Assembly: GCF_029167625.1 (NCBI RefSeq)
Contig: NZ_CP119145.1
Coordinates: 2,232,001 to 2,296,000 of the forward strand
Source: Streptomyces sp. AM 4-1-1
GTDB taxonomy: Bacteria > Actinomycetota > Actinomycetes > Streptomycetales > Streptomycetaceae
DNA: 64,000 nucleotides
Direction: 5' to 3'
Positions 24,695 to 44,252 of this stretch are shown piece after piece. Position 1 is the stretch's first letter; every line of letters begins with the position of its first letter. The notes under the pieces are model-generated. The model did no database searches. It was not told where the DNA came from and saw nothing but the letters and a program-made list of their open reading frames with translations. The position numbers were made by a program, and so were the translations under genes.

Positions 24695-25120
24695 ATGAAC
24701 ACAGCCAAACCGTCCTCTCCCGGAGTCTCCGCACGCATGAGTCGACAGGCTCGACGTGACACCGCTCCGGAGGTGGCGGTGCGCAAGCTCCTGCACGCGG
24801 GGGGACGCCGATATCGGCTCAACGTGCGGGTTCCGGACATGCCGCGGCGGACCATCGACATCGCGTTCCCCCGCGCCAAGGTCGCCGTGTTCCTCGACGG
24901 CTGTTTCTGGCACGGCTGTCCACAGCACGCCACACGGCCGAAAGCGAACGCCGAGTGGTGGCGGGAGAAGCTCGACCGGAACATGGCACGCGACGTGGAG
25001 ACCACCGAACATCTGGCAGCCGCAGGATGGACGGTGTTGCGGTTCTGGGAGCACGAGGCGCCACTCCTGATCGCTGAGCGAGTGGCGGCAGCCGTCGACC
25101 GGACCCGGTCGGACGAGTAG
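24695..25120 (+). CDS. vsr: Very short patch repair (Vsr) endonuclease
   Basis: 141 residues. Nicks 5' of the T in T:G mismatches arising from deamination of 5-methylcytosine. Family core visible: SRQARRDTAPEVAVRKLLHAGGRRYRLNV, the PD-(D/E)XK-like acidic motif RRTIDIAFPRAKVAVFLDGCFWHGC with catalytic Asp and the His/Cys zinc site (CFWHGCPQH), then ARDVETTEHLAAAGWTVLRFWEHE. Placed 20 bp before two cytosine methyltransferase genes, the usual vsr context. First gene of the island's rightward left arm. Confidence 0.94.
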   Translation: MNTAKPSSPGVSARMSRQARRDTAPEVAVRKLLHAGGRRYRLNVRVPDMPRRTIDIAFPRAKVAVFLDGCFWHGCPQHATRPKANAEWWREKLDRNMARDVETTEHLAAAGWTVLRFWEHEAPLLIAERVAAAVDRTRSDE

Positions 25121-25140
25121 ACGGACACGGCAGGAACGGG

Positions 25141-42100: not shown

Positions 42101-42423
42101 GCCCCGACGACGGCGCGGGTCGAATCGACGAATATCGCGACGAACTCGAAACTCTGGTCGGGAAGGCGCTCGCCGACCGCGCCGAGGCGGTCGACCCGGC
42201 GGAACACGCCGCGACCATCCGGTCCTTCCACGAGTTCATCGACTGGTGGGCGGAGGAGGCACAGGTCCACGGCGGACTGACGTACGAACCCGCACGCGGA
42301 AAGAGGGCAGCGTCGTTGCTGTGCGCCTTCGACGACGAGGCGAACGACCGAGCCTGGCCCACCCTGTGGAGTCTGCGTGACGTGGACGCCGAATCCGCTC
42401 TCTTCATGGAGGCATCCCGATGA
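39193..42423 (+). CDS. drmA: DrmA-like helicase of DISARM-type systems
   Basis: 1076 residues. After ~430 residues of unassigned N-terminus comes an SF2-type ATPase: [20 protein letters not shown] (Walker A), a zinc-ribbon-like [11 protein letters not shown]...[29 protein letters not shown] (motif II with DELH), [10 protein letters not shown] (III), [40 protein letters not shown] (V-VI). The DELH box and the following DUF1998 protein are hallmarks of DrmA/DrmB. In DISARM, DrmA and DrmB form a DNA-binding translocating complex that blocks incoming phage DNA. ATG overlaps the SF1 stop by one base; ends in an ATGA overlap with drmB. Confidence 0.92.
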   Translation: [1076 protein letters not shown]

Positions 42424-44252
42424 CCCCTCCCCCCGCTCGGCGCCGGCGCGGTGGCATCCCGGAGCGCAGCTTTCCGCGCCGTGGCTCGGTACGCCGTTCA
42501 CAGATGATCACGACGTACGGTGTCGGCTCGATGATCGCCGTCGACAACGAGTCGTTCATGGTGTCGGGTACCGACTCGTGGAACATCGGCGAGGCCCCGA
42601 CCCTCCTTGAACACCGATTGGCCCGCGTGCTGGGAGTAAGGCACTTCAAGCTTCCCCCCGCGTCCGGCGACACGAGCAAGGACGGCGTGAGGGTCAGGCG
42701 TTTCCCCCTCTGGCACTCGTGTCCGAGCTGCGACGTCCTGCAGCACGTGCGCGGCTTCAACCCGCCGGTCGGCAGGAACGAATGCGGTGACTGTGCGGAG
42801 GAACTCGTCCCTTCCCGCTTCGTCATGGCGTGCCCGAAGGGACACATCGACGATTTTCCGTACTGGCGGTGGGCGCATCGGGACAACCGTCAGAAGGGTG
42901 AGACGGGTCTGTGCGAAGGAGAGATGCGGCTGCGCACCAGTGGCAAGACCGCGTCGCTCCGCTCGATTCTGATCTCGTGCACCTGTGGGATTCCGGAAGT
43001 CTCGATGGAGGGGGCGTTCCGCAGGAACGCACTGGCCAAGCTCCACGTCTCCTGCTCGGGCAAGCGCCCCTGGCTGAAGGACGCCCAGCCCGAACCGTGC
43101 ACCGAAACGGCCCGTACCCTCCAACGCGGTTCGTCCGTGGCGTGGCAGCCCATAGTGAAGAGCGCGTTGTCGATTCCGCCATGGAGCGGTGGCCTCGCAG
43201 CACGCCTCGCCGACCACTGGGAGAGTCTCCGCGACATGGATCGCGCGGGCATCGAGGGCTACCTCAGGGCCATCGCCAAGGGGGAGAAATACGAGTTCTC
43301 CGCCGACGAGGTCATCGCGCTTCTGGAAGCGGAGAAGCACGAAGACCTGGAGGTGGACGAGGAGCGAGGACACGACGGCGTCTTCGTCGCACTGCGCAAA
43401 CAGGAGTACAGGCGGCTGACCGAAGGCAACCCGGAGAGCGCCACCGACCGCGTGGAGAACTTCGTCTGCGAACCCCCTCGCTCCTCGGCGTCCGCTCTTG
43501 CCGCGTACGGCGTGACCGGCCCGATGTTGGTCAAGCGCCTGCGTGAGGTCCGGGCTCTCAAGGCGTTCTCGCGTGTCGACACTCCTGACGCCCGCACCGA
43601 TGTGCACGAAGCGGCACTGTCCCTGGAGGCCCTCGACTGGCTGCCCGCCATGGAGGTCCAGGGCGAGGGTGTCTTCCTGCGACTCGACGAGACGCGGCTC
43701 GACGCCTGGGAGCGAAGTGCGGCCGTCGCCGCGCGCGCGGAACGGATCGGAAACAGCCATCGGCGCCAACTGCGCGAGCGAGCCGACGATTCCGCAGCTG
43801 TCATCGATTCTCCGGCGACCCCCCGGATGGTGCTGCTGCACACCCTCGCCCACGTGCTCATCAACGAGTGGAGTCTCGACGGCGGATACCCGACGGCTTC
43901 GCTGAGGGAGCGTCTGTACGCGAACGAAGTCATGGCGGGTCTGCTGGTGTACACAGCGACCAGCGACTCCGCGGGCAGCCTCGGAGGCTTGGTGGCTCAG
44001 GGAGAACCGGACCGTCTGGTGGGAACACTGCACTCCGCCCTGGACCGGGCCCAGTGGTGTTCGGCGGACCCGCTCTGCGTCGAGTCCGAGGCGAGCGGCG
44101 CGGGGAGTGTCAACCTCGCCGCGTGCCACGCGTGTGTTCTGCTACCCGAGACAAGTTGCGAGCAGAACAACGGGCTTCTGGACCGGGCGCTCCTCATCGG
44201 CACCCCGGAGGACCCGTCCATCGGCTTCTTCAGCGAATCGCTGCTCCTCTGA
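42420..44252 (+). CDS. drmB: DrmB-like DUF1998 protein
   Basis: 610 residues. N-terminal RRSQMITTYGVGSMIAVDNESFMVSGTDSW and zinc clusters (WHSCPSCDVLQH, RNECGDCAEELVPSRFVMACPKGHIDDFPYWRWAH, SCTCGIPE) followed by the DUF1998 domain MVLLHTLAHVLINEWSLDGGYPTASLRERLYA...LAACHACVLLPETSCEQNNGLLDRALLIG. This full layout is that of DrmB. It partners DrmA. No PLD-family drmC follows; the next gene, 8 bp on, is convergent. Last gene of the four-gene coupled operon. Confidence 0.93.
   Translation: MTPPPARRRRGGIPERSFPRRGSVRRSQMITTYGVGSMIAVDNESFMVSGTDSWNIGEAPTLLEHRLARVLGVRHFKLPPASGDTSKDGVRVRRFPLWHSCPSCDVLQHVRGFNPPVGRNECGDCAEELVPSRFVMACPKGHIDDFPYWRWAHRDNRQKGETGLCEGEMRLRTSGKTASLRSILISCTCGIPEVSMEGAFRRNALAKLHVSCSGKRPWLKDAQPEPCTETARTLQRGSSVAWQPIVKSALSIPPWSGGLAARLADHWESLRDMDRAGIEGYLRAIAKGEKYEFSADEVIALLEAEKHEDLEVDEERGHDGVFVALRKQEYRRLTEGNPESATDRVENFVCEPPRSSASALAAYGVTGPMLVKRLREVRALKAFSRVDTPDARTDVHEAALSLEALDWLPAMEVQGEGVFLRLDETRLDAWERSAAVAARAERIGNSHRRQLRERADDSAAVIDSPATPRMVLLHTLAHVLINEWSLDGGYPTASLRERLYANEVMAGLLVYTATSDSAGSLGGLVAQGEPDRLVGTLHSALDRAQWCSADPLCVESEASGAGSVNLAACHACVLLPETSCEQNNGLLDRALLIGTPEDPSIGFFSESLLL

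Follow-up and report, generated by a model that had tools for sequence, protein, structure and literature searches.

The window analysed here is a 64,000-nucleotide stretch of Streptomyces sp. AM 4-1-1 (contig NZ_CP119145.1, positions 2,232,001 to 2,296,000), and it contains an island of ten genes that fills positions 24695-44252, from the start of a Vsr gene (24695) to the stop of DrmB (44252). The ten proteins were annotated against Pfam, PADLOC and NCBIfam, and some were checked against PDB structures. Coordinates and gene list agree with an initial annotation made from the letters alone, which had described a DISARM-related defence island with a non-canonical gene set. Its count of nine families becomes ten genes, and its two unassigned partners are a DUF6339 protein and an unannotated protein, here called X. 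The features are listed below (HTH, helix-turn-helix; SF1 and SF2, helicase superfamilies 1 and 2).

24695-25120, + strand: Vsr-type endonuclease (TIGR00632, 114.8 bits against a cut-off of 97.85)
25141-26121, + strand: mt1, C5-cytosine methyltransferase homologue without the catalytic Cys (PF00145, E 3.4e-39; PADLOC DruM2, 9.6e-92)
26189-27424, + strand: mt2, C5-cytosine methyltransferase with GPPCQ intact (PF00145; PADLOC MTase_II, 3e-154)
27444-28337, - strand: DUF6339 protein (PF19866, E 3e-12; PADLOC PDC-M33C, 1.1e-7)
28334-29326, - strand: protein X, 330 aa, unannotated (present in 43/43 genus loci and 80/80 named loci)
29323-31443, - strand: HTH-GHKL ATPase (PF01381 HTH_3, 5.5e-12; PADLOC PDC-M33A)
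31444-32522, no strand: divergent promoter region (alignment of 8 loci)
32523-37286, + strand: fusion of a sacsin-type GHKL ATPase and a RadD-like SF2 helicase, 1587 aa (NF047352 sacsin, 69.7 against a cut-off of 50; PDB RadD, E 1.5e-27)
37271-39193, + strand: SF1 (UvrD/GajB-like) helicase (PF00580, E 7.6e-25; GajB, 4.3e-27)
39193-42423, + strand: DrmA (NF038325, DISARM_DrmAS, 1021.4 bits against a cut-off of 950; PDB Serratia DrmA 7s9v_A, E 2.9e-186)
42420-44252, + strand: DrmB, MZB/DUF1998 (NF038324, 476.5 bits against 240; PDB Serratia DrmB 7s9v_B, E 1.7e-77)

The genes of the right arm (fusion, SF1 helicase, DrmA and DrmB) touch or overlap at their ends, and the helicase/ATPase motifs of the first three are intact. 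Both Drm proteins score above the cut-offs of their DISARM models, which upholds the proposed relationship; the predicted sacsin-like ATPase/SF2 fusion is also borne out, its SF2 half now recognised as RadD-like. The left operon lies on the minus strand and reads away from the middle of the island in the order HTH-GHKL, X, DUF6339. The HTH-GHKL protein has invariant residues at its GHKL-like motifs; its open frame extends to 31560 and its start is uncertain. Repeats of the TTTGACA type at 31444-31560, upstream of this gene, are kept in eight aligned loci and are a possible operator for its HTH domain. The X protein of the window has no match in NCBIfam, PADLOC or Pfam and is predicted to fold into an N-terminal beta-sandwich and C-terminal helices (model pLDDT, the predicted local distance difference test, 89.8), while the DUF6339 protein is predicted to be all-helical (81.8). 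The Vsr core DGC(F/Y)WH.CP.H is retained in 42 of 43 copies, the remaining copy being a partial match, and besides Vsr no nuclease was recognised in the ten proteins among the matches listed from Pfam, PADLOC and NCBIfam.

Searches of 199 genomes of the genus, at E values up to 1e-50 for the fusion and up to 1e-20 for HTH-GHKL, found the fusion protein in 37 genomes and HTH-GHKL in 43. A 68% relative of the fusion protein occurs in S. venezuelae ATCC 10712. From the fusion matches we define a close set of 31 loci with at least 59% identity; the border was drawn after the list had been seen, and all 37 are reported. Every one of the 31 has HTH-GHKL 556-1271 bp from the fusion (by match edges). 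Counting a gene as present at half coverage or more, mt2, DUF6339, X, HTH-GHKL, the fusion and the SF1 helicase occur in 31/31 each, mt1 in 30, Vsr in 27, and DrmA and DrmB in 30, the contig of genome G144 ending early. The order DUF6339-HTH-GHKL-fusion-SF1-DrmA-DrmB is kept in 30/31 (G144 is cut off), and Vsr-mt1-mt2 stand in order at the left in 24/31; in the other seven a gene is absent, inverted or relocated to the right side. The gene combination thus recurs in the genus, as the initial annotation had needed it to. In one genome (G170, locus L062) the fusion gene matches as two separated pieces, and the right arm there may be decaying.

Pairwise protein distances were compared across 28 of the 31 loci (G137, G144 and G170 were left out). 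Genes of the right arm correlate with one another at 0.95-0.97 and HTH-GHKL correlates with the fusion at 0.93; the latter value stands at 0.92 with the species marker rpoB removed (28 loci; Mantel 0.0001). Island genes correlate with rpoB at just 0.22-0.55. Given this strong co-variation of the arms and weak tracking of rpoB, the island appears to have spread horizontally, the left operon's three genes (hereafter the triad) and the right arm travelling together and the Vsr/mt1 end being swapped more freely.

The two cytosine methyltransferase homologues of the initial annotation are both of the C5 type, with one refinement. In mt2 the GPPCQ motif is intact in 42/42 copies from fetched genomes and in 78/78 copies found in named loci. 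In mt1, motif IV reads GLPRVK, with PR where the catalytic PC is expected (residue 81, bases 25381-25383). The motif IV cysteine of Dnmt1 is the nucleophile, and alignment of mt1 to Dnmt1 puts the substitution at this residue; mt1 retains the C5-methyltransferase match, the ENV motif and the glycine-rich N-terminal motif. PR is found in 42/42 aligned homologues from fetched genomes (a partial copy in G137 was set aside), in 120/120 protein-database matches (the best 120 of 4912 with E < 1e-20) and in 64 of 66 copies in named loci, the other two being one PH and one unreadable, so that no close copy with a readable motif has PC. Three distant plasmid relatives (42.9-43.8% identity) all keep PC: one lies near a NaeI-family gene and two directly precede genes annotated as NgoMIV family or R.NGOI. 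Enzymes of the NaeI/NgoMIV type recognise GCCGGC. On the Rhodococcus opacus plasmid pROB02 (L228), a PC-type relative is annotated near DUF1998, very short patch repair endonuclease and NaeI-family genes. Because the loss of the cysteine is clade-wide and maintained, these alignments point to mt1 having been kept for a non-catalytic role.

The left operon is also found with other partners. A search for it yielded named loci, of which the best 80 of 180 were analysed, and DrmA stands beside it in 77. Fifty-eight of these carry the fusion and the SF1 helicase (L204, whose stretch ends, is outside this count), 17 are of a second type with about 38% DrmA identity, and two, in Nocardia, show a third arrangement. 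The Nocardia loci (L165, L173) consist of a distant fusion, a NERD helicase, DrmA, DrmB and then the triad in the same direction. DrmA of the second type is far from fusion-type DrmA, and in the HTH-GHKL tree the second type forms one supported clade adjoining a fusion-type locus. Within the genus, 12 of the 43 left-operon loci are without a close fusion-type right arm, and 5 of the 12 have another DrmAB.

Plasmids searched with HTH-GHKL gave five records, all of which cover less than 80% of the query. Homology of the triad partners was supported for DUF6339 in 5/5 tested and for X in 4/5 (profile E-values, 14-sequence set), X of the Synechococcus elongatus record giving no match by the X profile; profile comparison put DUF6339 at 98.5% and X at 77%. 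By annotation, Halobaculum magnesiiphilum and Haloplanus sp. GX21 (where the GHKL match covers two annotated genes) carry a helicase-related gene, a hypothetical or Zn-binding gene, a phospholipase D gene, others, the GHKL-X-DUF6339 triad and a cytosine methylase. The first two of these genes were compared with the Drm proteins in Halobaculum, giving matches to DrmA (E 7e-58) and DrmB (E 1.1e-9), respectively. The fifth record, Halobacterium sp. DL1, is fragmented in its annotation. On the Synechococcus elongatus plasmid (L233:256-5820) the triad is joined to a 641-aa cytosine methylase, which is a minimal form of the module. In these few plasmid cases a 5-methylcytosine (5mC) methylase is the steadiest partner of the triad, and DISARM-like genes accompany it in two.

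Compared with known systems, the island resembles a class 2-like DISARM with the short form of DrmA, sharing separate DrmA and DrmB genes and a C5-cytosine methylase; mt2 matches the PADLOC model DrmMII at 4.5e-19, far behind MTase_II. Added to this are the sacsin-GHKL/SF2 fusion, the SF1 helicase, Vsr, the Cys-less second methylase and the HTH-GHKL triad. The initial annotation had seen drmC and drmE as replaced by GHKL ATPases. Their absence holds: among the matches listed for the ten proteins there is none to DrmC or phospholipase D (Pfam, PADLOC, NCBIfam) and none to DrmE (PADLOC, NCBIfam), and for DrmD there is just a local alignment of the fusion with NF038317, at 15 bits (cut-off 610). 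The idea of a replacement leaves out that the HTH-GHKL operon is a separate and widely shared module. PDC-M33A matches 12/12 HTH-GHKL members (best 1.9e-24), the protein of the window covering positions 30-171 of the 627 in the profile, and the DUF6339 protein matches PDC-M33C. X occupies the middle position of the triad, and 0/57 of its members match any PADLOC model. The island further differs from PDC-M33 in the fusion of the HTH to GHKL and in the methylases and DrmAB attached. Judged by these profiles, the left operon may be seen as a divergent version of the candidate PDC-M33. PADLOC sets of this kind arose from guilt by embedding and are described as mostly unvalidated in the part of PMC12988326 drawn on here, where PDC-M33 is not named.

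The comparison with ARMADA made in the initial annotation did not survive. As far as the excerpted account goes (PMC12458937), ARMADA combines a BrxHII-like helicase, a PglX-like methylase and a one-piece YprA helicase with a C-terminal Vsr domain, and type II adds RelE-GajB. The island shares with type II a YprA-family helicase, a GajB-like SF1 helicase and a Vsr-type nuclease. In contrast to ARMADA, its DrmA and DrmB are split frames and its Vsr is a gene of its own. No PglX-like methylase appears among the matches listed for the ten proteins, both island methylases being of the C5-cytosine type; the SF2 part of the fusion is RadD-like, with BrxH models at E 4e-4; and the RelE domain of type II was not matched in the island. 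We therefore rejected an assignment to ARMADA. With Druantia type II the island shares DruM2, the best PADLOC model of mt1; it differs in that DruE models reach just E 3e-4 with DrmA, a weak match, and neither DruF nor DruG is among the matches listed. Mza-type genes adjoin the same left module in some relatives.

DrmA itself is more widely distributed. The short type (E up to 1e-40) was found in 81/199 genomes of the genus and in 29/396 of a phylum sample. Twenty other DrmA loci, chosen by hand as stretches of 13-20 kb, have varied neighbours, including SF1 helicases, McrBC-type genes, a DrmMI and proteins with sigma-70 regions, and HTH-GHKL, X or DUF6339 was not the best match of any open reading frame in these stretches. 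This variety suggests that DrmAB is a promiscuous core in the genus and the fusion arm one lineage of it. Genes with sigma-70 regions precede DrmA in L217:4615-8046, L221:6375-7940 and L209:5523-7865, and of two such proteins tested one (L217) matches MzaA. At the borders of the island, DrmB is followed on its right by a HATPase_c_2 gene (- strand) and a DUF5753 XRE regulator (44261-45973); a HATPase_c_2 match is found at most 500 bp from DrmB in 20/31 loci, and a regulator match in the stretch in 17/31. On the left, a SEC-C motif gene (a secC homologue, 23574-24590) recurs near the island in 18/31 loci and in 3/7 Mza-type loci, suggesting an insertion hotspot.

Taken together, we classify the island as a conserved, mobile, predicted anti-phage locus, a putative new variant of DISARM and not a new category. 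Its function we infer from gene content. We cautiously favour the explanation that all its genes serve a single composite innate immune system, built from a DrmA-DrmB core with its own motors (the sacsin-GHKL/RadD-like SF2 fusion and the SF1 helicase) and a plug-in modification module (mt2, mt1, HTH-GHKL, X, DUF6339 and usually Vsr). Under this explanation, mt2 would put 5mC on host DNA at its own sites. DrmAB would load on exposed single-stranded phage DNA and be damped by 5mC, as for Serratia DrmAB, which the consulted part of PMC9142583 describes as activated by unmethylated 5'-overhang DNA and slowed in its ATPase rate by 5mC; with the fusion and SF1 motors it would then invade unmarked phage DNA. 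The triad could act as an ATP-gated clamp of the MutL/MORC kind through which the motors respond to modification state, and its HTH may regulate the divergent promoter. Where prokaryotic GHKL proteins stand next to methylases, helicases and Vsr, they have been argued to act jointly in restriction-modification, like MutL and topoisomerases (PMC2292703, in part). mt1 may read DNA without catalysis, perhaps still at the site that its active NaeI/NgoMIV-linked relatives recognise, and Vsr might nick captured DNA, standing in for DrmC, which is given as dispensable in that excerpt of PMC9142583. The clamp, the reader and the nicking are the weakest parts of this mechanism.

Several observations weigh against a single composite system. 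Seven of the 43 genus loci pair the module with Mza-type genes, no Drm gene being seen (contigs end 0.8 kb past the HTH-GHKL gene in G099 and 4.5 kb past it in G042). In the named Streptomyces locus L138, none of the query helicases finds a match within the 10 kb on that side. The haloarchaeon Halomicrobium urmianum carries two triads and a methylase, and the 25 kb seen there include no annotated DrmAB-like helicase; on the plasmid of Synechococcus elongatus IITB6 the triad is followed directly by the methylase, with none annotated in the 13.7 kb seen. mt1 is missing in 13/79 named loci (the short L192 was set aside), Vsr is missing in 9/80, and both co-vary poorly with the other island genes (partial r 0.24-0.57). 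HTH-GHKL adjoins the fusion, so linkage contributes part of their correlation. Six of the 37 genus fusion matches, at 48% identity or less or partial, are without an adjacent HTH-GHKL (G095, G097, G171, G067, G183 and G150, the last with two matches on different contigs). Class 2 DISARM is also reported to protect against modified phage (PMC9142583, in part), so 5mC would not be a full off-switch.

Such cases raise the alternative of two independent defence systems at one hotspot, a methylase-linked restriction system of the PDC-M33 type and a DrmAB with its own motors, co-travelling on a mobile island with no mutual need. The triad and methylase found without a recognised DrmAB agree with it, as do the fusion relatives at 33-53% identity without HTH-GHKL (G095, G097, G171, G370 and G468), four of which have DrmA and DrmB as neighbours (the DrmA match of G468 lies at a distance of about 29 kb) and one of which, G097, carries Vsr, mt1 and mt2 but no triad; the recurrent secC homologue likewise indicates that genes cluster at one site. 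We nevertheless judge this alternative rather unlikely, since right arms of this type without the left operon number 0/31, the partial correlation stays high once rpoB is removed, and the module is combined with several DrmAB types and with DISARM-like loci in two haloarchaea. Whether the island is one system or two, a question the initial annotation had raised, thus receives a mixed answer: independence is frequent for the left arm and was not seen for a right arm of this type. The role of Vsr is nearly an even call. It could be an ordinary very-short-patch repair enzyme guarding mt2 sites from 5mC deamination and not a defence nuclease, in keeping with its being the least co-inherited gene (partial r 0.24-0.36), missing in 4/31 loci, and with the frequency of Vsr-type genes beside such methylases and helicases (PMC2292703, in part); a defence role is favoured by Vsr being the sole nuclease among the matches listed for the ten proteins and by the Vsr domain that the ARMADA YprA helicase bears in the excerpted account (PMC12458937).

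What is more surprising about the island is that its Cys-less methylase is conserved and its GHKL-X-DUF6339 module portable. One further idea, which we regard as improbable, is that mt1 is a pseudo-enzyme sensor: bound at the sites methylated by its ancestors, it would sense their state and permit the GHKL-X-DUF6339 clamp to load any docked helicase engine, be it one of several kinds of DrmAB or Mza; were this true, a portable self/non-self module would give sequence-aware control to a defence otherwise sensing DNA structure. For the candidate PDC-M33, the results add a recurrent association with a 5mC methylase, and often with DISARM, among bacteria and archaea. For the DISARM family, one modification/GHKL module combined with several DrmAB types and a Mza-type engine offers a natural experiment, bearing on how DISARM may discriminate self from non-self and on which nuclease and loader may be used without DrmC.

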